Shown here: positions 5,926 through 29,093 of the stretch, one piece after another
Position numbering within the stretch: the stretch's first letter is position 1
Layout of the letters: each line of letters starts with the position of its first letter
Assembly: GCA_030527205.1 (NCBI GenBank)
Contig: JAUNBG010000001.1
Span: 1-64,000 of the forward strand
Reading direction: 5' to 3'
Origin: Planctomycetia bacterium
Lineage (GTDB): Bacteria; Planctomycetota; Planctomycetia; Pirellulales; Thermoguttaceae
DNA length: 64,000 bases
Notes under the pieces: generated by a model
Databases searched by the model: none
The model's input: the letters and a program-made list of their open reading frames with translations, nothing else
What the model was told of the DNA's origin: nothing
Translations under genes and position numbers: made by a program

Positions 5926-7143
5926 TTAAGGAACAGGTTGATAAAACGGATTATTTTCAACCGGCATAAAAGAATTGGAAAAGGGAGCGTCAATGAGTCG
6001 GGTTGCTTTGACAAGGCGACTCGTTCGAAACTGGAAGAAATTGTCGGATCGATTTGGATCCAAACTGTTAATTTTAACAGAAGTCGCCGCATGAATGAAT
6101 TCGGAATCCCCTAAATAAATTCCAGTATGAGTAATCCCGAGATTTGTTTCGCTTTTGGGGGTTCCAAAATAGAGCAAATCGCCCGGTTTCAGATTATGAT
6201 AACCTTCAGAAACGTCAATGTTGATTCCGTCTCGCATTTGTTGACTTGCATCGCGTAAAATAATAATGCGATTCAGAAAGAAAACAATCGAAACAAAACC
6301 GCTGCAATCAATTCCTTTCGTTGACGTTCCCGCCCAAAAATAAGGAAACCCTAAAAACTTTTTCGCTGTTTTTGTCACATTTTCAGCGGAAAGATCGCGC
6401 GTTGCCAACCAAATATCAAACGGAATGGAAGATTCTTTCAAAATCCAACCGATTCGGCCATCCGGAAACGCGACTTGATAGAACAATTCGTTGTCTGAAT
6501 TTTCCAACGTTAAAACGTTGCCAGCAACGAGATCTGAAATAGTCGAACTATCTTTATCTGGTTCAGAATAAACGAAACCAAAAAAATCTGTGAAGACAAT
6601 TTTTGAAGCGGATATCCATGAATTGTATTCGTCTTTTGTCATAGGCTGAACAGAGCCGGAAGTTGTATAACCGAGATAACCATTTGGCATTTGAATCCGA
6701 ATCCAACCGGAATTTTTTGCTTTGTCAATAATCCGAACGGGCATTCCTAATAAAGCTTGCGTTCCGAGTTCCGCGGAATAGTCTGGATCATAACGGAGAT
6801 TGATAACCGATAAAGTAACGACGCCATAAAATCGATCATTTAATTCGGCATTTTCTTGCGGCGCTATAATGAAATCGACTTGGTAATGAGGAAAATCCTT
6901 TTTTAAGAGTTCCAAAACCGCTTGCTTTGCTTCGGGCGAAGTTGTTTTGCCATTTAAATAAGGTTGCCCATTCATTTCGCCGAGCGACCATTCAAAAACC
7001 CCCAATCGCCAATCGGGACGCCATTGGTTTTGAATGAGTTTTAATCCTTTTTCCAAATCTTCGACAGACTTTTCCTGCGAATATCCGAAAGAAAAACCAA
7101 AAAGCAAATAAAGTAACAGAAAAAAAGAGAATCTTGTTTTCAT
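5926..7143 (-). CDS. NlpC/P60 peptidoglycan endopeptidase with SH3-like domains
   Basis: A 405-residue exported protein with a signal peptide (residues 1-22, ending FGYSQ). Two SH3-like beta-rich repeats follow (about 105-165 and 180-240, each with a GW/GY segment such as GWIRIQMPNGYLGYT). The C-terminal NlpC/P60 cysteine peptidase has Cys280 in the DCSGFV motif, His339 in THTGIYLG and a third polar residue, His351, in FIHAA. Such enzymes cleave the D-glutamyl to diamino-acid bond in peptidoglycan stem peptides in the cell envelope. The start ATG is preceded by GGAAAG. It ends in an Asn/Pro-rich tail. It shows that this lineage is likely to have or handle peptidoglycan. Confidence 0.9.
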   Translation of the reverse strand: MKTRFSFFLLLYLLFGFSFGYSQEKSVEDLEKGLKLIQNQWRPDWRLGVFEWSLGEMNGQPYLNGKTTSPEAKQAVLELLKKDFPHYQVDFIIAPQENAELNDRFYGVVTLSVINLRYDPDYSAELGTQALLGMPVRIIDKAKNSGWIRIQMPNGYLGYTTSGSVQPMTKDEYNSWISASKIVFTDFFGFVYSEPDKDSSTISDLVAGNVLTLENSDNELFYQVAFPDGRIGWILKESSIPFDIWLATRDLSAENVTKTAKKFLGFPYFWAGTSTKGIDCSGFVSIVFFLNRIIILRDASQQMRDGINIDVSEGYHNLKPGDLLYFGTPKSETNLGITHTGIYLGDSEFIHAATSVKINSLDPNRSDNFFQFRTSRLVKATRLIDAPFSNSFMPVENNPFYQPVP

Positions 7144-7308
7144 TTGAATAAACTTTCCATTTATCCAGAAATTGGAATCAGTACGGGCTTTGCTCTTTTG
7201 ACATCTGTTCGTTGTTGTCGATCAAACGACTCCAACGAACCGGGCTTTTAACAGATTTGATTCTAAATCAGAACCGCATCGTTTAAAAAAGCGTTTTTAG
7301 AAAATAAA

Positions 7309-9132
7309 TTATTTTTTCAAACAATCAGCTAAATCGGTTTGAGGGTCGCTTATTAAATTGAGTCCAAAACGGTCGGCAAGCATATTGAGAACGTCAGGCG
7401 TCAAAAATGCGGGAAGGGTTGGTCCCAATCTGATATTTTTAATATTTAAGGCCAATAGTGTCAAAAGAACAGCAACCGCTTTTTGTTCAAACCAACTTAA
7501 AAAAATCGAAATGGGCAGGTTTTTGATTTCGCAATTTAATTGTTCGGACATAAATTGAACAACTCGAATGGCAGAATAAGCGTCGTTGCATTGTCCAACG
7601 TCCCATAATCTCGGAAGACCCGAAGGAAGGGGGGCAAAAACTTCGCGATTAAATCGAAATTTTCCGCATCCGAGCGTTATAATAACGCAATCATTTGGAA
7701 TTGCTAAAGCCAAATCGGTAAAATAACTTCGTTTCGAACAGGATCCGTCGCAACCGCCGATTAAAAAGAATCGTCGCAGTTGTTTTTGTTGAATGGCCTT
7801 TTGAATTTGATCCCAAATATTAATAATGGCGTCAGCGCCAAAACCAATAGTTATTTTTTCGTTTCCTTTTGATTTGAAAAAACCCGGAGAATCAAACGCA
7901 GCTTGAATTAATGGCGAATAATCTTTCCGCCCTTTTGAATCCCGTTGAATAGCTTTAATTCCAGGCCAACTGACAGGCCCCGTTGTAAAAATATAATCCT
8001 GATAACTTTCGCTTGGTTGTTGAAGACAATTGCTTGTCATTAAAATAGCGCCGGGGAAAGCATCAAATTCTCGCTGTTGATTTTGCCAGGCAGTTCCATA
8101 ATGTCCCGCTAAATGTTTAAATTTTTTCAATAGCGGATAAGAATGGGCGGGCAACATTTCGCCATGCGTATAAACATTAATATTTTTGCCTTCGGTTAAA
8201 ACCAGGACGTCATATAAATCTTTCAAATTATGACCGGAAACAAGAATGCATTTTCCTTGAATCGGAGATAAACGAACAACAGACGGTTCAGGAATACCGA
8301 AATTTTGAATATGACCTTTTTCCAAAAGTTCCATAGCTTCCAGATTCAAGAAACCAACTCTTAGAGCGCTGTCAAGATATTCGTTTAAATCAGTTGATTC
8401 ATTTGCTAAAAAGGCAAGTTCCGTAATAATTCCGTCCAATAAATGGCGTTCTTTTTGACCCCATTCTGTTAACAAACTGGTTACGGAATTGATTTTAGAC
8501 TGAAGGGCGGCTTTTTTTTCTTTTTCTTTGGAGTCGCGAGCTTTGGTTTTTTTTAACGATTCGGTTAAAGTTTTGAGTTCCAGGCGGGAACGGTCACTGA
8601 ATTTTTTATGTAATTCCAACGAATGAAAAGTATAAGCGGCCGTTCCTCGGAGTCCGCAAAGAATCAATTCCTGAAGTCCGGCAATTGTTGGACCGAATTC
8701 ATTTTGTTTCGTTGCAATCGAATATGCTTTTCCCTGACCAACCAGTTCTTCAATTTGATCTTCAGTTGGTTCCTCATTCGATTGGAGAATCTGCTCTTCT
8801 AAAGAACTTTGATATTCCGGATTATTTTCTGTCGATAAATATTCAGTTAATTGAAGAATATGATCAGCTAAAAAAATAAGTTTTGTAATTTCTTTTTCAT
8901 TAAAATTAACGTTTGTTAAAGTTGAATAAAGAGCATTAATAAAAAACGAATCGATAATTTCGCTGGAATTTCCCCTTTGTAACATTTGAGTTGCCGTTTG
9001 CGCAATATGTTTGGCCCAAGCGGTCAATAAATTTTGAAGATGGGCAACCTTCTCTGTTTTTCCGCATACTCCGCAAAGATAACAGCCCGTTCCCTCAACG
9101 GTTTGTTCGCATTGATAACAAAAAACATTCAT
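7309..9132 (-). CDS. hcp: Hybrid cluster protein (hydroxylamine reductase / NO-related)
   Basis: A 607-residue Hcp. The N-terminal cysteines are spaced C-x2-C-x8-C-x5-C (Cys5, 8, 17, 23), the class I pattern that binds [4Fe-4S], with an extra Cys20. Hybrid-cluster ligands are visible: VSGHNLKDLYDVL, TSNCLQQP, GGCDGSCSKR, LGCGKFRFNR, WDVGQCNDAY and FEQKAVAVL. Hcp is known to reduce NO or hydroxylamine under anaerobic nitrosative stress. A Lys/Glu-rich insertion (about residues 195-220) makes it longer than usual (about 550). ATG 9132 is chosen because AAAGAAAG precedes it and the Cys motif then starts at residue 5; the frame opens further to 9249 without a supporting site. No Hcr reductase gene is adjacent. 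Confidence 0.93.
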   Translation of the reverse strand: MNVFCYQCEQTVEGTGCYLCGVCGKTEKVAHLQNLLTAWAKHIAQTATQMLQRGNSSEIIDSFFINALYSTLTNVNFNEKEITKLIFLADHILQLTEYLSTENNPEYQSSLEEQILQSNEEPTEDQIEELVGQGKAYSIATKQNEFGPTIAGLQELILCGLRGTAAYTFHSLELHKKFSDRSRLELKTLTESLKKTKARDSKEKEKKAALQSKINSVTSLLTEWGQKERHLLDGIITELAFLANESTDLNEYLDSALRVGFLNLEAMELLEKGHIQNFGIPEPSVVRLSPIQGKCILVSGHNLKDLYDVLVLTEGKNINVYTHGEMLPAHSYPLLKKFKHLAGHYGTAWQNQQREFDAFPGAILMTSNCLQQPSESYQDYIFTTGPVSWPGIKAIQRDSKGRKDYSPLIQAAFDSPGFFKSKGNEKITIGFGADAIINIWDQIQKAIQQKQLRRFFLIGGCDGSCSKRSYFTDLALAIPNDCVIITLGCGKFRFNREVFAPLPSGLPRLWDVGQCNDAYSAIRVVQFMSEQLNCEIKNLPISIFLSWFEQKAVAVLLTLLALNIKNIRLGPTLPAFLTPDVLNMLADRFGLNLISDPQTDLADCLKK

Positions 9133-9802
9133 ATTTGACTTTCTTTGTTGAACAGTATCTGTAAAATCCGTCGTTGATTTTAAAGCGACAAAAATTAACG
9201 GACAGGCCCCAATCGTTTTTTGACAATCCCTCTCTATTATCATAGCCATTATCAGCTTAAAAAGTAAGAGGGTTGTTCCTGTTTTTTAACATTTTTTCAT
9301 TTTTTCAAACAGATTATAATGAAAAAACTTCTTATAGAAGCGGAAAAATCGGTTTCAGTTTGTTTCGAAGCAATCATCTCAAAGCAAATAATGATCGGTT
9401 TCAATAAAGTAATTGAAAAAAATTTTTGTTGCCAATCGTTTAGCTTCCAAAGGCCAAACGAATTTCCATTTGCAAACAGAACTCTTAAATAGCTTGAGTA
9501 TATAGGTTATTAAGGGGTTTTAATTGATTTTATGTAGAAATTTCTGTAAAGAGTTCAAAAGAAATTAAGATCAAGGATATGAATTTTTAAAGAAAGGAGA
9601 TTGTTAAATATTGAATCTTTGATATATATTTGAAAAAAATTGATATTGCTAATAAAAGTATGCAATAATAGATAAAATGGCTTAAATCGAAGAAGACGTT
9701 ACTGAAGATTCTGAAGAAACTTTATAAAAAAAGAGTATCCGTTCACGGGAACTTCGTCGAATTCAAGAAATAGCGGCCGCTGTTAAATATACAGTGTTTT
9801 CT
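9133..9802. other. Intergenic stretch without a recognised gene
   Basis: AT-rich DNA upstream of hcp with no convincing ORF on either strand. A TATAAT on the minus strand near 9315 could be the -10 box of hcp, but its -35 partner is poor. Repeat family 4 begins at 9803. Confidence 0.5.
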
Positions 9803-10084
9803 CCGATCTTTGTAATGCATTGGACATTTTCGCGCAGCGACGCGGCGGAAATGCAATGACGCATTCTTGGGAACTTCCGATTTCGTCATTATTTAAATCG
9901 CTTTTAAAACGGCGATCCCATTTGAAAAAGATTGTATTTGTTACTCGTTTTTGGAATTTTTATTCTGTTCGCCGCTCGCCGCGTCGTTGCGCGAAAATAT
10001 TTTTTAAAAGGAATGTCGAACTCTTTCGCGCAAAAGGAAAAAATCGCCGTGAACGGGGACAAAAAAGAAATAGGTTTTATTGAA
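9803..10084 (+). repeat. Dispersed repeat family 4, copy 1 (~280 bp)
   Basis: Closely similar to 14491-14764 over its whole length, with shared blocks such as TTTTCGCGCAGCG, AACTTCCGATTTCGTC and AATCGCTTTTAAA. It carries a 22-bp inverted repeat with one mismatch: 9826-9847 (ATTTTCGCGCAGCGACGCGG..) against 9977-9998. Short frames inside it on both strands look incidental. Confidence 0.8.
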
Positions 10085-10215
10085 ATCGAAATAGGGAACC
10101 GGCATTGATCTTTCATAAATTGCTCATTTTCTTTCGGGTTTGGGGCTATGATTTGGGAATTCAAATGGCTTGAAGAAAAAAGAATCCGACTCGGAATAGC
10201 CGACGTTTTTTCAAA

Positions 10216-12672
10216 TCAAGTTCCGGTTCGAATCCAACGACGAATAATTTGAGCGGCCTGTTCGGGATGATTTGCAATGAGGTCTTTGACTTCTTTTTGC
10301 ATCAAATCATAGGAATCATTTCGTAAATGAGAATTCAATTCAAGTTCGTCTTCAATTTTTTTTTCTTCATTTTCTTTATAAAGATCATTTAGAATATTTG
10401 CTTTGAGGTCTTCTTCGGACGAATCCAACCGATAAAATTGGTCGGGTTCGTCTAATAATGATAAGGAAGAATGGGATTGAACAGACTCGTTTCCATAAAA
10501 GTTCGAATGTTTCTTTTCCGCATTTTTTAAGAAATGATCGTTTTCGGCAGCGAAGGTTTTGTCTGGTTGCTCAAGTTGAGTTGAATGGCTGGAGTCATTT
10601 TGATTTTTTCGCATTTTTCTTCTGCGAAGCGAAAATTGAATCAAAGCCAACAAACAAGCGCCTAAAATGAGAGAACCGGGAATAAGAATGCCAATATATT
10701 TAATTCTCCAATGACTGATAATTTGAGTAATTTCTCCGAATGGAATAATTGGTTTTGAAGTCGTTATTTTTACAGAATCATCGAGATGAGGTTCCGTATT
10801 TATATTGTCGGAATAAAAAGAAATGCGAATCCAATCATCCGAATTGGACAAGTCGATTCCTTCTCCTTTTAAGACCGGCTTCAAAAGAGTCAGAACCAAT
10901 TTATGAACATTTTGAATAATATTATTTTTTGTATTCAAGAAAAGTTCAGAAGGAATATTGGGGCTGACGGGTTGATGTTTGGAGTTGTTTTCTGAAGCAA
11001 TAATCGAATTGGTTTCGGAATCTTGATGTTGTTTTTCGGTCAAACTGTTTTCCGAATTTTGTGACGGATCATTATTTGTCTGGCGAAAATCATTCAAGGT
11101 TTCAGATGAACTTTTTGAATCAACATCGGGTTGATTGGAAGGATTTGTTCTCAAATTTTTTTCTTGAGATTCAGAATGATTGACTTGTTCCAATGGATTA
11201 TTTGCAAAAGTAAACGTTGCATTCGATATTTTGTCGGCGGGAGTCTGTTCCTTATTCTTTTCTGACGACGAACGTTTCATTTCTTTTATAGCCAATTGTT
11301 CAATATAACTTTCGGGAATAGAAATACTGACGGAAACGCCGCGCAATTTTCCGAATGATTTTGGCAAAGGTTCGGAAATTGGCTGATTCATAAATCTTTG
11401 CTTAATCGGGTTCAAATGAATTAACGACGCATTGGAAGTTTGGGGGGTTAATGTCGATTTTGCCGAGATATTTTGAGACGCGATTTCTTCTCCATTTTGA
11501 AAATTCAAAGAAGAATTATCTTGAGCGGAAACCATTTCCAAATTTGATTGATTGTTTGAATTCTCAACGGCTTGATTCGTTTGGATTGTTTGGTCAAGAA
11601 CTTCTTGATTTTCAGAAGAGTCCGTTGAAACAACAGTTTGATTTAAAGAAGTTTGAGAAGACGCCGCATTTGACGTTGAACTATCATTTTTCTCTGATTT
11701 GTTTTGGTTATTTTGCCTATATTCAAAAGAAGAGAGGGAACCGTTTTTATTTCCAGATTCATTTTGGAAATTTGGGAAACCGATATAAGCGATTGATTGT
11801 TGAACAATTTGACCGTTTTCATCCGCTTGCGCTAAAATAAGCGTTCGGTTCAATTCATTTGTTTCTGAATGAGTTATCGGTTCAAGGTCGACGGTTGTTG
11901 AAATATAAATTTCAGGAATAAAAGAAAGAGCGTTTTGAAATTTTTCCTGCCAATAAAGTTCCTGACGTTTTTGTTCTTGAATAAGCGAAGCGCTTTCAGC
12001 ATTCGAAACGGCTTCTTCCGTTCCGAGATAAGCGCGTCCGGCGCGAAAATCAAGAATAGAAATGTCTTTATTGTTCGATATTCCCAATTGATGTTTGGCC
12101 GCGATTGTTATTGCGGAAAGGAGTTCGGGCGTTAATGTCGCATTTTCCTGCATACAAATTCCGATCGAAGCCGTCGTAATATTTTTAACAATCAAACCGG
12201 TCTGTTCGCGACGAAGTCGAACGCCAACAGTTGCATATTGAATCTGTTTTTCATAATATTCGAACGTTTGTTCGAGTTGTTTGGCGCAAGAGAGAAGTTC
12301 GCGAGCCCGGCTTTTGGATTCCGGCTCAAATTGTCCCATTTCTTTCAGAGATTCCCATTGAATATCGCTGGGAGCTTTGGGGAAAGCGGCGTTTTCCGTT
12401 AAGGCCGATTCATATTTGGCTTTTTCAGACTTGGGAACGGATAAACGGCCAGACTCCCAATGATAATCAAAAAGTCCAGCTTTGGCAAGCGCTGTTGTTG
12501 CCCGTTTTTGATCTTCCCGATTATAAAGCCAACCGTCAAAAACGAAGTCGTTTTCTTTAATAGGATTATTATTTAATAAAAAAGCATAAATCAAAACAGC
12601 GATCAGAATTGTTAAAATCAAGCCGATCCCTAATCGAATTCCTGGCGCTGCTTTTCCTTGCTGCTTTGGCAT
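10216..12672 (-). CDS. fliF: FliF-like flagellar M-ring protein
   Basis: An 818-residue membrane protein. It has an N-terminal transmembrane helix (about 12-33, GLILTILIAVLIYAFLL), then YscJ/FliF ring-building regions (VFDGWLYNREDQKRATTALA and following; about 40-260). A very long Ser/Asn/Gln-rich segment follows (about 290-560), then a second transmembrane helix (about 657-680). A cytosolic tail ends in HPEQAAQIIRRWIRTGT, which matches the FliF C-terminus that binds the FliG switch protein. FliF forms the M ring at the base of the flagellum. ATG 12672 is chosen because GGGA precedes it; the frame runs upstream to 12738. No other flagellar gene is in the window, so motility cannot be inferred from this gene alone, and a relative with another role is possible. 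Confidence 0.7.
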   Translation of the reverse strand: MPKQQGKAAPGIRLGIGLILTILIAVLIYAFLLNNNPIKENDFVFDGWLYNREDQKRATTALAKAGLFDYHWESGRLSVPKSEKAKYESALTENAAFPKAPSDIQWESLKEMGQFEPESKSRARELLSCAKQLEQTFEYYEKQIQYATVGVRLRREQTGLIVKNITTASIGICMQENATLTPELLSAITIAAKHQLGISNNKDISILDFRAGRAYLGTEEAVSNAESASLIQEQKRQELYWQEKFQNALSFIPEIYISTTVDLEPITHSETNELNRTLILAQADENGQIVQQSIAYIGFPNFQNESGNKNGSLSSFEYRQNNQNKSEKNDSSTSNAASSQTSLNQTVVSTDSSENQEVLDQTIQTNQAVENSNNQSNLEMVSAQDNSSLNFQNGEEIASQNISAKSTLTPQTSNASLIHLNPIKQRFMNQPISEPLPKSFGKLRGVSVSISIPESYIEQLAIKEMKRSSSEKNKEQTPADKISNATFTFANNPLEQVNHSESQEKNLRTNPSNQPDVDSKSSSETLNDFRQTNNDPSQNSENSLTEKQHQDSETNSIIASENNSKHQPVSPNIPSELFLNTKNNIIQNVHKLVLTLLKPVLKGEGIDLSNSDDWIRISFYSDNINTEPHLDDSVKITTSKPIIPFGEITQIISHWRIKYIGILIPGSLILGACLLALIQFSLRRRKMRKNQNDSSHSTQLEQPDKTFAAENDHFLKNAEKKHSNFYGNESVQSHSSLSLLDEPDQFYRLDSSEEDLKANILNDLYKENEEKKIEDELELNSHLRNDSYDLMQKEVKDLIANHPEQAAQIIRRWIRTGT

Positions 12673-21276: not shown

Positions 21277-22107
21277 TCAACCTTTTTTCTTTAACGGCGA
21301 AACCGGTTTTCCCTGATCGTCGAGTTTTAAAGGAGTCCAGGCGCCGTTGTCAACAACCCAAGTATACTTTTTCTTATCAAAATCGCTGTTATGAATAAAA
21401 AAGCGTTTTCCAGAAATCGATACAAAAAAGGTTTCCTTGTCGTTTCCTTTTGGATAAGTAATCGCGTAAGTCATAATGACCGATTCTTCATTTCCGGCAG
21501 AAAAGTAACAAGCGTCAACGCGATAAAGTCGACATTGAGCCTGATCGCCTAAAGCGGCCAAAGTAAGCAAAGTCCGATTGGTCAAAAAACGATGGGTTGC
21601 TTCATGAGTTTCTTCGTCGCGAATATAATTTTTCCAAAAACCAGCTTCGTCGCTTATCGGATTTCGAACAGCCAATCCAGATTGCAATTGTTGCAATTTA
21701 ACGAAATCGCCTTTTTTAGCGGTTTCAAACCAATATGTAAAAAAGACATCGGCATTTTTATATAGATTTTGTGAATAAACATAATCCATTAACGGTTTGG
21801 AAATGCCTGGAATCAACAGCAACCAAAGTCCGATCAACAAGAAAGAACGGCCGATCAACAGTCCCTCGGATCGTTTGATGTTAATGGCCGCGATAATAAT
21901 CAAAAGAAGAGTAATAATCGGCACGAAAAGAAAATTCATGCTGAAAAAAACCGTAAACGACAAAAAGCCGCCAATCAATGAAAGAATGGCTAAAATGCTA
22001 ATGTTTTTGGGCGAAGATTCATCCAGACTCTGTTCATTGGAAAGACTCCAATTCTGCGAAAACAGAGAACCGCTTTTGGTTTCAAAATCGGTTTCATTGT
22101 TCGACAT
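21277..22107 (-). CDS. Predicted membrane protein (DUF4190-like N-terminal part)
   Basis: A 276-residue protein of unknown function. After about 35 polar residues there are two or three closely spaced hydrophobic segments (about 37-80 and 85-105) with a basic loop, a layout resembling DUF4190-type membrane domains. A soluble C-terminal domain (about 115-265) follows, containing TYWFETAKKGDFVKLQQLQS and ending in a Lys-rich tail. The C-terminal part could be an NTF2-like fold that faces outside the membrane; this is a guess. ATG 22107 is chosen because GAGGTT precedes it. Possibly co-transcribed after the gene at 22292-22912. Confidence 0.7.
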   Translation of the reverse strand: MSNNETDFETKSGSLFSQNWSLSNEQSLDESSPKNISILAILSLIGGFLSFTVFFSMNFLFVPIITLLLIIIAAINIKRSEGLLIGRSFLLIGLWLLLIPGISKPLMDYVYSQNLYKNADVFFTYWFETAKKGDFVKLQQLQSGLAVRNPISDEAGFWKNYIRDEETHEATHRFLTNRTLLTLAALGDQAQCRLYRVDACYFSAGNEESVIMTYAITYPKGNDKETFFVSISGKRFFIHNSDFDKKKYTWVVDNGAWTPLKLDDQGKPVSPLKKKG

Positions 22108-22291
22108 AATAACCTCAAAATTTTTTAAATCATAAATCAAAGGAATTTTAAAAGATTTGAATTTTCTCAAAAATATCAAAAAGTATTCATTCTTTTATGG
22201 GAATTCAATTTATTTGCGTTGACAGTTCAGTAAAACGGAACAATCAGAAATTTTTAACTGGCTTGAATTTAAAGATTTCAAATCGACCCGT

Positions 22292-22912
22292 TTATTTAAC
22301 ATTGGGACTGTCGCCCTCAAATTGCCAGGAATCTGTATTTTCCAGTGTGGAATAAATCGCGCAATTTCGAGCATTTTGCCCCTGTAAAAACGAATCTGAA
22401 TTAAATTGCGCATGCGGCAGAAAATCCGGCGATTTCATGGATCCGCTGGAAACATAATTAAGCAATTTCATCGTTGGCGGAGCGCTGATGTTTTCGACAT
22501 GAGGGGCTTCTGGAAGAAGGGACATAAAAATAAATCCAGTCGTTGAATAAAATCCGACGAACAAGACAAACAAAATGCAATAAGTTCCAATCAGATTAGT
22601 TTTAGCCGGAAAATAAACATTTACTTTCGATAATTTTCGGCTGACTTCCCCCAAAAAAGCAAGAGTAAAGCAGAATATAATGAAAAATGCCAGGACGTCA
22701 TTATAATAAAGCATCATTGACATTGCGCCGTCAAGAATATTGGCCAACGGTTCAAAATAGTTAATGGCAATGATTGAAGCGAAGAAAATATTAAACAATT
22801 TGATTAACGCTCCCCAAATTGGATCATTTCGACTGAATGCGAGAATTGATAACAGGACAACCGGCGCTCCAATCAGATAAAAAAGATGATATCCCCACAT
22901 AATCAGATTCAT
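22292..22912 (-). CDS. Predicted membrane protein (CvpA-like topology)
   Basis: A 206-residue protein with about four hydrophobic segments in its first 135 residues (7-25, 35-52, 70-92, 107-132). The 75-residue C-terminal tail is polar with no recognisable motif. Spacing of the helices recalls CvpA-like proteins, but I see no signature residue that proves this. GGAG lies 10 bases before the ATG. The neighbour downstream (21277-22107) is also a membrane protein of unknown function. Confidence 0.65.
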   Translation of the reverse strand: MNLIMWGYHLFYLIGAPVVLLSILAFSRNDPIWGALIKLFNIFFASIIAINYFEPLANILDGAMSMMLYYNDVLAFFIIFCFTLAFLGEVSRKLSKVNVYFPAKTNLIGTYCILFVLFVGFYSTTGFIFMSLLPEAPHVENISAPPTMKLLNYVSSGSMKSPDFLPHAQFNSDSFLQGQNARNCAIYSTLENTDSWQFEGDSPNVK

Positions 22913-23287: not shown

Positions 23288-25144
23288 TTATTTCAAAATG
23301 CGAACCAATTCGTCGAACGAAGTATGGCCTTTCGAAACCAACCAGGAGCCGTCTTCCAAATAACCCCTTTGGCCGTTTCGAGCGGCTACCTGTCGCAATG
23401 CCTCGGCGGAAGGATGCGTCATCATAACCTGACGAATGTCATCGTTGATGAATAAAATATCAAGAATCGCGCTGCGACCGTCATAACCGATTTCCTGGCA
23501 AGCCGAGCAAGGGACATAAGTATCTTTTTGACCCTGTTCGACAACAGGCCGAACGCGTTTTCGATATAAATATTTAACGGAACCGGGCTGCAATCCAAGT
23601 TTTTGAAGAATGAGCGGATTGGCGGGAATTTTTTCCCGACAGGCTTTGCAAAGATTTCGAATCAGTTTTTGAGTAATAATGGCTTGAAGCGAGTCGGCGA
23701 GCAATTTGGGGTCAATGCCGGTTTGAAGCATTTTGAGCAACGTTTCAACGGAATCTTTGGCACGAAATGTTGTTATGATAAACCGGTCATTCTCAATTTC
23801 CTGACAGCAAAGCGAAAAAGCTTCCGTATTGATCATATCGCGAATCAACAGAACTTTTGGTTCTCGGAAAAAAACGTCAGGAAGAATGTCCATCGGATTT
23901 TTTCCGTCAGCGGAATCATAAGTATTCAATTGGACATTTTCAAGGAATGGATACGGATTTTGAACGTCTTCGACCGTTGAGAAGTCTCGAGTAAAACGAT
24001 CCGCCGCCAGGACAGAGACGTTGGTCAACGTTTTCAAGCCTTGCCCATTCAGAGCGGAGAAAACAAGTAAACCGTGATCCGTTTTCATCAATTCCTTAAC
24101 CAGCATTTGACGTTTTTGGGAAAGCCCCAACTCCGCAAGCGTTTTATGATTGGTCCCATTCGAAACGATCGACAGAGAAATTTTTTCGCCGGTTGGCGCT
24201 CCTTGAGAAACAAAATGAACAGGAATTTTATTCTTTTTTCCTGCGTCAATAATAAGGTCGCCCTGTTGATGACTGCGACGGTCTTGCGGATTGGCTCCAA
24301 CAAGAATTTTAGCTGTTTCCTGAAGCGGATCAGCTTCTTCGCGTTTCAAGGGATATTTGAATATATTGTCAATCTGATGCCAAACGCCATCGAGCATGAA
24401 ATAGATGAGCGTTTCTTCCTGACCGAATTCAATCGCAATTGCGGTCGCTTTTCGTTGCATCGAATTATAGACAATCGTTCGAAGCGTATTGTATCCAGCG
24501 GTATTTCGCGCTAAAATGGTTCGGCCATTTTTTTCTTCTGTCGAGAAAGTTTTCGTATTATTGACCAATTGAATGGGCGGACCAACTTCATAAGCTTGCT
24601 TTTTTTCTTTGATTTTGATTCCGCATAATCGTTTGATGATAAAAGAAATATGACTCGGAGTCATAACCTTGTCGGCGGCCAACATTCCGGTATTGCGATG
24701 AGACACATACATAAATGTCGGAACAAAATAAGCAAGCGGAATGAGCAGCAACGGAACGATCCAAAGCGGAATCAGCAACGAAAGGAAAAAGACCAATGGG
24801 AAAACGCTCACAAGAATGGTATTCCAATAAACGCGATCCGGGTCTCCCAATCGTTCTGCGTCTGTGTTGGCCCAGCTTGTTGTTACAGTCCAGAGCCAAT
24901 AAAAGATAATCATAACGATAATCGTAATCAGATTAAAATAATTTCCGCCATTGGCTCGCCAACCGGTTTCTAAAATATTTTGACCGGTTGCCTCGATTTT
25001 TTTCATTTCTTCTGCCGAAAAAATTCGTTTGGGACCTGCATCCTCGTCTTGCGCTATTGCGAAATTCGAGCCGCAATGAATCGTTAAAGACGCCAGAAAA
25101 ATTGTCAGGCAAATGAACAATAAAGTTTTGATATGAATTTTCAT
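23288..25144 (-). CDS. Membrane-embedded GspE/PilB-like protein with degenerate ATPase motifs
   Basis: A 618-residue protein. It has a signal-like N-terminus (1-32), then three or four hydrophobic segments (about 70-92, 107-132, 130-150), then a region related to type II secretion/type IV pilus ATPases. The GspE architecture is kept in the C-terminal half, including the four-cysteine zinc site (CKAC at 499-502, CSAC at 546-549) followed by EIGYDGRSAILDIL. The catalytic motifs are altered: Walker A reads SALNGQGLKT (363-372), Walker B has lost its acidic pair (KVLLIRDMIN, 430-439), and the His box is ITTFRAKDS with no His. It probably does not hydrolyse ATP in the normal way. It lies directly upstream in transcription terms from nothing but follows pilT (stop 25295) on the same strand, so a shared complex is likely. 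ATG 25144 starts the signal sequence; the frame extends to 25210. Confidence 0.8.
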   Translation of the reverse strand: MKIHIKTLLFICLTIFLASLTIHCGSNFAIAQDEDAGPKRIFSAEEMKKIEATGQNILETGWRANGGNYFNLITIIVMIIFYWLWTVTTSWANTDAERLGDPDRVYWNTILVSVFPLVFFLSLLIPLWIVPLLLIPLAYFVPTFMYVSHRNTGMLAADKVMTPSHISFIIKRLCGIKIKEKKQAYEVGPPIQLVNNTKTFSTEEKNGRTILARNTAGYNTLRTIVYNSMQRKATAIAIEFGQEETLIYFMLDGVWHQIDNIFKYPLKREEADPLQETAKILVGANPQDRRSHQQGDLIIDAGKKNKIPVHFVSQGAPTGEKISLSIVSNGTNHKTLAELGLSQKRQMLVKELMKTDHGLLVFSALNGQGLKTLTNVSVLAADRFTRDFSTVEDVQNPYPFLENVQLNTYDSADGKNPMDILPDVFFREPKVLLIRDMINTEAFSLCCQEIENDRFIITTFRAKDSVETLLKMLQTGIDPKLLADSLQAIITQKLIRNLCKACREKIPANPLILQKLGLQPGSVKYLYRKRVRPVVEQGQKDTYVPCSACQEIGYDGRSAILDILFINDDIRQVMMTHPSAEALRQVAARNGQRGYLEDGSWLVSKGHTSFDELVRILK

Positions 25145-25294: not shown

Positions 25295-26449
25295 TTACAA
25301 AATACCAGGTTCTTTAACTTCAATTCCTTTAAGCGCCATTTTGAGCGATTCAACGTTCGGCGCGACCTCAAAAGCGGTTGCGCGATCGATTTTTTTAGCT
25401 TGAACCAGACTTTTCAGACTCATTGTAAAGTCCTGCATTCCTTCCTGAGCGCCAATACGAATCGCGTCGGACAGTTTTTCGTCCTGTTCTTCCAGTATCA
25501 ATTTCTTAACGATACTGTTGACAGTCATTATTTCAACGGTTGGAACTCGTTGAGTGCCGGGAATAATGGACGGGAGCAATTTTTGTGCAACAATCCCCTT
25601 CAAATTCATCGCTAAGGCGCCTCGAATTGCTTTATGCATATTCGCAGGAAAAAGGTCGAGAATACGGCCAATTGTGCTCGGCGCTGTTGACGCGTGAATG
25701 GTTCCAAAAACCAAGTGACCGGTTTCAGCAGCATGAATGGCCGTCTCAAAAGTATCGCGGTCACGCATTTCTCCGACAAGCATAACATCCGGGTCTTCTC
25801 GAACCGCATGTTTCATGCCGATCTCAAAATTAACGACGTCCATTCCGATTTCTCGTTGATTAATGAGGCATTTGTCTTCAGTGAACATAAACTCGATCGG
25901 GTCTTCGAGGGTCAGAATATGCTTGTTGTAATTACGATTGACCCAGTTCAGCATGGACGCGATTGTCGTTGATTTTCCAGAACCGGTAATTCCAGCGAGC
26001 AGAATCATTCCCTGACTGAATTTACAAAGTTCATACAAAACCGTCGGCAAATGCAACTTTTCGAGTTCGGGAATATAATTGTTAATTCGACGAGCGACCA
26101 AACCGATATGACCCATTTGAGTCAGAACGTTGACACGAAATCGCCAGCGAACGCCGTCAACCATACAAGTATGAGCAAAGTCGGCGCCGCCGTCATCGTT
26201 ATAAATTTTTCGATTTCGTTCATCCATAATGGGAAAAATCAGGCGACGCATTTCTTCGTCATCAATCGGTCCGCGATTTAAGGTTCGCAGACCCCCTTTG
26301 ACCCGAATATAAGGGGGACGATCAACTTTCAAATGCAAATCGCTTCCTTCAAGTCGGACAAGAGCTTGAAAGAGAGCATCAATTTCCAAATCTTTTTTTT
26401 TCTTTGTATAAACCTGTTCCGGTGAATAATCAAGATCGTTGGCCGGCAT
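25295..26449 (-). CDS. pilT: PilT-type twitching/secretion ATPase
   Basis: A 384-residue hexameric ATPase of the GspE/PilT superfamily. Walker A is GITGSGKSTT, the Asp box is HILTLEDPIEF, Walker B is VMLVGEMRDRDT, and the His box is HLVFGTIHASTAPSTIGR. All are intact. The PilT-specific AIRIGAQEGMQDF follows near the C-terminus. PilT normally powers pilus retraction. The N-terminal domain begins with LVRLEGSDLHLKVDRPPYIR. No pilin, PilB or PilC gene is in the window. The neighbour (23288-25144) is a degenerate relative, which suggests the two could work together. The ATG lacks a strong ribosome binding site. Confidence 0.93.
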   Translation of the reverse strand: MPANDLDYSPEQVYTKKKKDLEIDALFQALVRLEGSDLHLKVDRPPYIRVKGGLRTLNRGPIDDEEMRRLIFPIMDERNRKIYNDDGGADFAHTCMVDGVRWRFRVNVLTQMGHIGLVARRINNYIPELEKLHLPTVLYELCKFSQGMILLAGITGSGKSTTIASMLNWVNRNYNKHILTLEDPIEFMFTEDKCLINQREIGMDVVNFEIGMKHAVREDPDVMLVGEMRDRDTFETAIHAAETGHLVFGTIHASTAPSTIGRILDLFPANMHKAIRGALAMNLKGIVAQKLLPSIIPGTQRVPTVEIMTVNSIVKKLILEEQDEKLSDAIRIGAQEGMQDFTMSLKSLVQAKKIDRATAFEVAPNVESLKMALKGIEVKEPGIL

Positions 26450-26714: not shown

Positions 26715-28034
26715 TTATGGTTTCTGATTTTTATTTGTCGATGTTTTTTTCTTTAGTTCTTTCATTAATAAATTGATAATTCGAATATATGAACGAATGG
26801 ATTCCTCATAATTATAAACTTTCAGACAGGAAAAAGCATGATTTTTTTGTTTTTCGATATTTTTCCAATTCAAAGAAATTCCTTGATTTTGAACGGCAAT
26901 AATCAGTTGATTGACTATTTCATTCAATTTGTCACAAAAAGAGCTGCTCGGAGCGACAGGAGTTCGAATATAAGGGCCTTTTCCTAAAATTTTACTCGAG
27001 GAACGAGAATTAGAAAAACGAAAAAGCGATTTTCTGGCGCTCCAAAGAAACAAGGAAGCAAAAACAAAAGCAACGAGACCGGAAATGATTGACCCTTTAA
27101 AGCAACCCGATCGAATTTCTTCGTTCCCAGAAGCAACAACAGCTGTTATCAAAAGCGTTAATAAAGCGGCAATTGTTAAAGCCATCAGCGACCAGGAAAG
27201 CGTTGAAATGGGGATTCGCTTTTCATAAATCGTATCCCGTTTGTCCTCTTCCGGCTCTGGAAGCGAAAGAACCTGAACAACAATGATTGTTATATTGTCT
27301 GGGCCGCCGCGAAGATTGGCTAAATTAATCAACGCTTCTGTCGCCTCATTCGGCGGAAAAAGTTCGATTATTTGCCCTATTTCCGTATCATCAACCTGCC
27401 CGGTCAGTCCGTCGCTGCATAATAAAAAAGAATCGCCAGGCTGCAACGGAAAAGGTCCTTCCAAATCGACAACAAGATTATCGGTTGGCCCAAGCGATCT
27501 CGTTATGACATTTTTGGGAATAAAAGCCGGAACTTTGGCCATTGGAACCCGACCTGAATGACGAACTTCCCAAACGAGACTATGATCAAAAGTCAATTGT
27601 TCAAATGATCTGTTCCGAAGACGATAGACTCTGCTGTCGCCAACATGAGCGACATAAGCTCCTTCCGGCAATAAAAGAAGCGCGTCTACGGTTGTTCCCA
27701 TATCATGAAACGCTTCGTCCGATGCCCCTTCTCGTTTGATTTGTTGATGAGCCTGAATGACCGCATTTCTTAAGGCGTCCGACGTTATTTCCGACGTTCG
27801 TTTTATATAACTTTGCGAGATAATGTCGGTTGCCATTCGACTTGCCCGTTCGCCTGCCGCATGAGCGCCCATGCCGTCTGCAACAATAAAAAGATGACCG
27901 CGGGTTCGCCAAAGTCTTGAACTGTTCGCTGGAGAGACGCTATGAGAATCCTGATTGTTTGAACGGCGCATTCCGATATCTGTTCGCGCCGAAAAACGAA
28001 TCATATGATCCCACCAATTGCTCTTTTCGTTCAT
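26715..28034 (-). CDS. PP2C-family protein phosphatase with transmembrane segments
   Basis: A 439-residue Mg/Mn-dependent Ser/Thr phosphatase. PP2C motifs occur in order: DIGMRRSNNQD, IVADGMGAHAAGE, HDMGTTVDALLL, VGDSRVYRL, CSDGLTG and GGPDNITIIVV, all with the metal-binding aspartates. After the catalytic domain (about 1-260) come two hydrophobic segments (about 285-305 and 316-336) and a polar, helical C-terminal domain of about 90 residues. This puts the phosphatase on the membrane. It may oppose a Ser/Thr kinase, but none is seen here. ATG 28034 is preferred because GAGGTT lies 4-9 bases upstream. It is followed on the same strand by pilT with a 265-bp gap. Confidence 0.92.
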   Translation of the reverse strand: MNEKSNWWDHMIRFSARTDIGMRRSNNQDSHSVSPANSSRLWRTRGHLFIVADGMGAHAAGERASRMATDIISQSYIKRTSEITSDALRNAVIQAHQQIKREGASDEAFHDMGTTVDALLLLPEGAYVAHVGDSRVYRLRNRSFEQLTFDHSLVWEVRHSGRVPMAKVPAFIPKNVITRSLGPTDNLVVDLEGPFPLQPGDSFLLCSDGLTGQVDDTEIGQIIELFPPNEATEALINLANLRGGPDNITIIVVQVLSLPEPEEDKRDTIYEKRIPISTLSWSLMALTIAALLTLLITAVVASGNEEIRSGCFKGSIISGLVAFVFASLFLWSARKSLFRFSNSRSSSKILGKGPYIRTPVAPSSSFCDKLNEIVNQLIIAVQNQGISLNWKNIEKQKNHAFSCLKVYNYEESIRSYIRIINLLMKELKKKTSTNKNQKP

Positions 28035-28160
28035 CAGAACCTCGTTCAAAACTCTTCTTCCAACTATTTTTCCTGAAATTTGACCTTATCCAAATTAATC
28101 CGGCAAAATCCTGTTTTTAGAGCAGAATTCAACCCCTTAAATCATTAATCAAAACACAAA

Positions 28161-28442: not shown

Positions 28443-29093
28443 TCATGAAAACAAATAGAATTTCAATGACTCTAAAATAATCTCGCGATTTCCAATCAAA
28501 ATGATCAAAAGATAAATAAAAATGATGATTCCAAGAGCGACAAAATATTTGTTGGCCGGATTGATTCCAGATTTCATATTCCGCGTTGCTTGAACCAATG
28601 CCTCTTCCAGGCGATTCCAACCGCGCAAATCTGGTTGTTCGCCAGCAGCAATCAGGGACACATTTTTTAAAAACGAACAATTTTCCAAATAAAATTGGAT
28701 TCCCAAACCGGGAAGATTTAATGAAGCTCCTGCCCATCGCGCTTCAAAGTCCAGTTCAAGCGCCAAACGAGAAAGAAGAGATCGCGCTTCGTCATAACTA
28801 ATATTATATAATATGATTTGAGGGCGACGAAACGTTCCGAGAAAAACAATCAACAGGAAATATAAAGAAAGTAATAAGAACCAAACCCAAAACTTCCAAA
28901 CAATAATCGCATTAATTGGAACAAGCATTTGTATCGGGCCAATAAAAACAAATCCAATCAACCCAAGACCAAGAAAAATAAGGTCCCGTTTGCCCGATAC
29001 AACGGTTGGACAGGAACGAGAATTGATAAAAGCCAGAACCAATAAATACAACGCCATTGGTCCCAAACTTATGATAATAAATAACGAATTCAT
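28443..29093 (-). CDS. Predicted membrane protein
   Basis: A 216-residue protein with about three hydrophobic segments in the first 90 residues, a soluble middle part (about 95-165, with YNISYDEARSLLSRLALEL) and one C-terminal hydrophobic segment (about 185-203). No domain is recognised. The ATG has no obvious Shine-Dalgarno. It could be transcribed with the PP2C gene (28034), 409 bp downstream, though the gap is long. Confidence 0.6.
   Translation of the reverse strand: MNSLFIIISLGPMALYLLVLAFINSRSCPTVVSGKRDLIFLGLGLIGFVFIGPIQMLVPINAIIVWKFWVWFLLLSLYFLLIVFLGTFRRPQIILYNISYDEARSLLSRLALELDFEARWAGASLNLPGLGIQFYLENCSFLKNVSLIAAGEQPDLRGWNRLEEALVQATRNMKSGINPANKYFVALGIIIFIYLLIILIGNREIILESLKFYLFS

Follow-up and report, generated by a model that had tools for sequence, protein, structure and literature searches.

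The motors of the PilB/GspE type that serve secretion systems and pili are soluble ATPases, with a soluble N-terminal domain ahead of the catalytic core. Their partners at the inner membrane are the proteins of the PilC/GspF family, and the type IVa pili have, in PilT and PilU, two related motors whose genes lie next to each other. In V. cholerae, PilU acts only through PilT, even through a PilT that is defective in ATP binding or hydrolysis, so that one motor of the pair may be ATPase-defective and yet be needed for the other (PMC6762196). The roles of the motif residues, including the Arg fingers, have been described, and form the basis of the comparisons made below (PMC5424180). For CvpA, the colicin V production protein (PF02674), a link to resistance against bile salts has been described, and possibly one with export (PMC6705877); no connection between CvpA and a pilus-type motor was found in the literature searched. 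Here we describe a locus of the Planctomycetota that brings members of these families together, and of which we found no description in the open-access literature searched.

The window, that is, the whole stretch of DNA analyzed, comprises the first 64,000 nucleotides of contig JAUNBG010000001.1 of a Planctomycetia bacterium (assembly GCA_030527205.1), and the features discussed are collected in Table 1. At the center of the locus is a protein that we term mGspE, the open reading frame of which is real, running from an ATG at 25144 to a stop at 23288. Residues 221-615 match T2SSE of Pfam with 113 bits, the closest sequence matches are PilF/PilB, and the top NCBIfam models are those of GspE/PilB, with a score of 136 that is far under the equivalog cut-off of 617. 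An AlphaFold2 monomer model (mean pLDDT 89.7, pTM 0.74) has the PilB/GspE core fold. The best Foldseek matches of this core are PilF, PilB, and GspE, with E values of about 1e-32 and TM-scores on the target of 0.82-0.86 for PilF/PilB. Instead of the soluble N-terminal domain of these ATPases, mGspE has a signal peptide, which on inspection would be cleaved between MKIHIKTLLFICLTIFLASLTIHCGSNFAIA and the Q that follows, and three membrane helices. The preliminary description of this DNA had placed a signal sequence and transmembrane segments ahead of a GspE-like region, an arrangement that inspection, hydropathy, and the model all bear out. The N terminus would be periplasmic once the signal peptide has been removed, with the three helices leading to a cytoplasmic core. 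Frameshifted copies were not seen among the matches listed for relatives, and no RNA families were found in the region.

Table 1. Features of the mGspE locus and its surroundings (positions in the window)
Feature	Position	Strand	Basis
mGspE, PilB/GspE-type membrane-anchored pseudo-ATPase, 618 aa	23288..25144	-	ORF, Pfam, alignment, model, Foldseek
mGspE predicted Sec signal peptide, residues 1-31	25052..25144	-	inspection; model helix 2-20; hydrophobic N terminus in most orthologues
mGspE transmembrane helix 1, about residues 70-90	24875..24937	-	hydropathy; model helix 72-99
mGspE transmembrane helix 2, about residues 104-124	24773..24835	-	hydropathy and model
mGspE transmembrane helix 3, about residues 129-151	24692..24760	-	hydropathy and model
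Degenerate Walker A ALNGQGLKT, residues 364-372, Leu370 at Lys position	24029..24055	-	alignment and model
Altered Walker B PKVLLIRD, residues 429-436, Asp436 at catalytic Glu position	23837..23860	-	alignment
Altered His box TTFRAKD, residues 458-464, Arg461 at His position	23753..23773	-	alignment
Zinc-type tetracysteine region C499/C502/C546/C549	23498..23650	-	invariant in family alignments
Dedicated PilT (PilT_L), every ATPase motif intact	25295..26449	-	TIGR01420; motif alignment
CvpA-like inner-membrane protein	22292..22912	-	weak PF02674 match (E 0.0036); 26/28 relatives match; model; co-loss
Small membrane protein, weak DUF4190 similarity in relatives	21277..22179	-	fifth locus gene in 28/44 loci of the order
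PP2C phosphatase, outside the conserved locus; neighbor in near kin only	26715..28049	-	Pfam; neighborhoods

What mGspE shares with the PilB/GspE ATPases is the core fold and the tetracysteine; what it has lost is Walker A, the catalytic Glu, the Arg fingers, and the His box. Its Walker A region aligns with GPTGSGKTT of the PilB/GspE proteins of the same genome in such a way that Lys is replaced by Leu370 and Ser/Thr by Lys371, and the P-loop helix of the model begins at residue 370. The consensus GxxxxGK[ST] is therefore absent, as it is from nearly all copies of the window's order, in which Leu stands at the Lys position: among 40 aligned mGspE proteins of that order, Leu370 is nearly invariant and is followed by R, K, T, S, H, or N. 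Because this following residue varies, the Lys of the window is not a conserved Walker lysine displaced by one position, and a functional shifted Lys was rejected on these grounds; the earlier view of Walker A as altered stands. A chance alignment of the region was likewise rejected, given 40 orthologues with the same architecture and the near-invariant Leu, together with the model. Walker B reads VLLIRD in place of VLVGEI, with Asp436 where the catalytic Glu would be expected and Asp, Glu, Ser, or other residues there across the copies. This motif had been characterized as altered, which is correct, and as wanting an acidic pair, which is imprecise, since Asp436 remains and the Walker B of the PilT family is without the Mg acid in any case (PMC5424180). 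Both Arg fingers (R271 and R286 in PilB) are absent, with H310 and S325 in their stead, and the His box has Arg461 where its His should be. The Glu of the Asp box, nearly invariant in the order, is kept in the VED of mGspE. The four cysteines of the zinc motif, which is a feature of the PilB/GspE clade (PMC5424180), are all present and invariant, and directly after the P-loop there is a new DRFxR motif, the Asp and Arg residues of which are invariant in the 40 aligned proteins. The loss of the His and the retention of the cysteines, both recognized in the preliminary description, are thus confirmed, and the conclusion that the mGspE of the window is a pseudo-ATPase is well supported.

The preliminary description proposed a survey of gene neighborhoods in the Planctomycetes, and this revealed a recurrent pilT-mGspE locus. 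The survey drew on 60 relatives, a phylum sample of 246 genomes, and a class sample of 149, all Planctomycetota. Across 40 neighborhoods of the order, the series hisF, pilT, mGspE, cvpA-like, and small membrane protein recurs, and the order hisF-pilT-mGspE-cvpA-like is found again in other orders and classes of the phylum; the conservation of this ancient locus is well supported. Among the loci that could be tested, PilT lies directly upstream of mGspE in 36 of 41 within the order, with one more that the distance rule failed to catch, and in 35 of 38 outside it; the median gap is 54 nt and overlaps of 1-4 nt are many. PilT_L is unlinked in three loci of family f21 and in L064, L066, and L071. 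Genomes with such an unlinked PilT_L, which include G020, G022, G044, and several of f21, encode it at another site. The window's own series is missing hisF, and it is for this reason that a PP2C gene adjoins pilT. That a PP2C phosphatase flanks the pair, as had been pointed out, is true of the window, but the adjacency is limited to its genus and near kin. The phosphatase ends in a membrane region, and its gene is accompanied by a second one of unknown function (28443-29093) both in the window's genus and in the near kin L040 and L042. The locus contains no pilin or platform gene, in agreement with the first reading of the sequence.

The PilT encoded beside mGspE matches TIGR01420 with 382.7 bits against a cut-off of 319.1 and has intact motifs, as first described, and the same is true of the motifs in all 75 loci tested. 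It is not the PilT that the canonical pilus cluster encodes: against a model of its own family, PilT_L proteins of the class score 590-680 bits, and the remaining PilTs of these genomes no higher than 390. In the 246-genome sample of the phylum, full-length mGspE is found in 32 genomes, and these are the ones that hold the top 32 scores for PilT_L. One genome (G057) has mGspE and CvpA and is without PilT_L. Throughout the order and its class, PilT_L proteins end in a conserved stretch, xLKGI...GIL, by which this PilT clade may be recognized. Rate covariation, analyzed by a partial Mantel test, gave no signal peculiar to PilT and mGspE and is uninformative here because HisF behaves alike. The functional link between a membrane-anchored pseudo-ATPase and an intact PilT that the preliminary description envisaged is supported by order-wide synteny and by the existence of a dedicated PilT clade.

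The third gene of the pilT-mGspE-cvpA-like module encodes a CvpA-like protein. Although the protein of the window scores only 17.7 bits against PF02674, for which the gathering score is 29.3, orthologues score 45-50 bits, and the family is matched by 26 of 28 relatives. Its model consists of four long hydrophobic helices, and a fold search with this model returned no match. In other classes (L099 and L102-L110) the CvpA-like proteins are 350-577 aa long, with a C-terminal part that has no Pfam match. The distribution of the protein follows that of membrane-bound mGspE: all 27 genomes that have the latter encode it, and none of the 14 that lack the latter does. Five of five phylogenetically independent pairs, taken on supported branches, are concordant for mGspE and CvpA (sign test p 0.06, the lowest value attainable with five), and the six pairs obtained on all branches agree without exception. 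All 14 genomes without membrane-bound mGspE keep PilT. In nine of them, mGspE and cvpA are both gone and hisF-pilT remains. The other five, which belong to family f16, have lost CvpA along with the membrane domain but retain a short, dead core beside PilT, a pattern which suggests that the membrane domain pairs with CvpA and the core with PilT. These cores of f16 (L167-L170, L214, and L215) are 440 aa long, lack the membrane part, and adjoin PilT; in L167, full-length and short copies of mGspE occur in tandem. Tandem copies are also found in L043 of genome G028 (7120-9009 and 9028-11133, plus strand), the second of which, at 702 aa, is extended at its N terminus by a hydrophobic segment that weakly resembles the CvpA-like proteins (probability 19% and E 0.0012 in hhalign), and is possibly a CvpA-mGspE gene fusion.

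Membrane-anchored mGspE occurs in most of the class and is scattered through other classes. Within the window's order, no linked copy examined has kept the ATPase motifs. Copies with intact motifs, which the preliminary description regarded as contrary to its reading should they occur at the same location, do exist there, but only outside the order: in f21, f106, f107, and three of the five copies from f105, and, beyond the class, in f51, f65, and f69. Losses are also found in the copies of f94, f67, f89, f76, f83, f23, and f109, and in f108 and two f105 copies the Walker Lys is kept but other motifs are lost. The residues lost by lineages outside the order differ from those lost within it. 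When the intact or lost state of mGspE is mapped onto a tree of the PilT proteins encoded beside it, at least six changes are required, from which it follows that ATPase activity has been lost repeatedly. A first tree of mGspE itself placed all dead copies in one clade, with a single change; constrained trees, in which f105 or the class was held together as a clade of mixed intact and lost copies, have higher likelihoods (lnL +30 and +11, respectively). The single-loss tree was therefore rejected as a search artifact, and the count of changes is taken from the PilT tree. The ancestor of mGspE was probably an active ATPase, and the family is not intrinsically inactive. Separately from these linked copies, one genome of the window's own order (G043) encodes, at L070 (contig C45, 7935-9731, minus strand), a membrane-helix GspE-like protein with fully intact motifs, the gene for which is not near those for PilT, HisF, or CvpA; this genome encodes the degenerate copy beside PilT as well.

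The explanation that we prefer, and to which we give about an even chance of being correct, is that mGspE is an inner-membrane adaptor that, together with CvpA, docks a dedicated PilT motor. The core would be cytoplasmic, held at the inner membrane by a three-helix domain that the signal peptide directs there, and mGspE and the CvpA-like protein would form an inner-membrane assembly in which CvpA binds the membrane domain. PilT_L would dock on the core and work there, contributing ATP hydrolysis, with mGspE providing position and coupling. On the best reading, the use of ATP by mGspE itself is dispensable. The PilT-PilU precedent indicates that a dead motor can serve a live one as an adaptor; mGspE differs from that pair in that the dead member is of the PilB/GspE type, membrane-anchored, naturally dead, and accompanied by CvpA. 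The suggestion that mGspE is a scaffold that recruits PilT is consistent with this evidence. Because at least nine genomes retain PilT_L and have neither mGspE nor CvpA, the adaptor would not be obligatory. The target may be a pilus-like filament, the likeliest candidate by descent, or its platform; with no pilin or platform gene in the locus, the link to a filament is one of homology.

A serious rival, possible rather than probable in our estimation, is an envelope function exercised through CvpA, in which mGspE, CvpA, and PilT_L constitute a non-pilus machine, for example for export, envelope stress, or cell shape, and PilT_L energizes a CvpA complex with no filament involved. Genes for pilin, PilC, and PilMNO are all missing from the locus, PilT_L is separate from the PilT of the canonical cluster, and the strongest partner in co-loss is CvpA, with its ties elsewhere to bile-salt resistance and possibly export (PMC6705877). 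Descent argues the other way, as both PilT and PilB/GspE derive from motors of the pilus/secretin family, and the same genome has, on contig C6, a canonical PilB-PilT-PilB-PilC cluster with five pilin-like genes that PilT_L and mGspE could serve.

It is improbable that mGspE binds or hydrolyzes ATP at an unorthodox site made up of the Lys or Arg one residue on and Asp436. Many copies do have K or R at that position, and Asp436 and the Glu of the Asp box are mostly kept, but many relatives have T, S, H, or N instead of the basic residue, the Lys position is fixed as Leu, neither Arg finger remains, the His is missing, and the lineages beyond the order have lost other residues; bare nucleotide binding may nonetheless occur. 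Highly improbable, too, is that mGspE is a functionless remnant: its evolution is fast (mean column identity of 30% in the alignment, compared with 62% for PilT_L) and its motifs are recurrently lost, yet full-length frames are maintained across the order, 17 columns are invariant (among them W85, W107, D382, R383, R386, and the four Cys), the signal peptide and synteny are conserved, and co-occurrence with CvpA is perfect. We attach equally little credence to the original proposal that mGspE, as a membrane protein adjoining PilT with no PilC gene in view, takes the place of a PilC/GspF platform, because it has the fold of PilB/GspE, no T2SSF match, and no relation in sequence or fold to PilC/GspF, and because PilC and pilin-like genes are present on C6 and T2SSF proteins in this genome and in 28 of 28 genomes checked.

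The adaptor reading might extend to a machine found throughout the phylum, in which CvpA and an mGspE that has repeatedly become a dead adaptor would make up the inner-membrane platform where PilT_L docks; this wider proposal is tentative and rather doubtful. If true, the platform would be a new kind of motor complex of the pilus family, and docking PilT would be the first molecular role for CvpA. Independently of that, the mGspE family is anchored in the membrane by a domain of its own, and several of its lineages have dropped the ATPase and kept the protein, the zinc site, and the PilT partner. Nature has here separated the structural role of a motor from its chemistry, which bears on how motors of the PilT type are coupled to the membrane, and the co-loss with mGspE gives CvpA, a widespread membrane protein, a concrete candidate partner.
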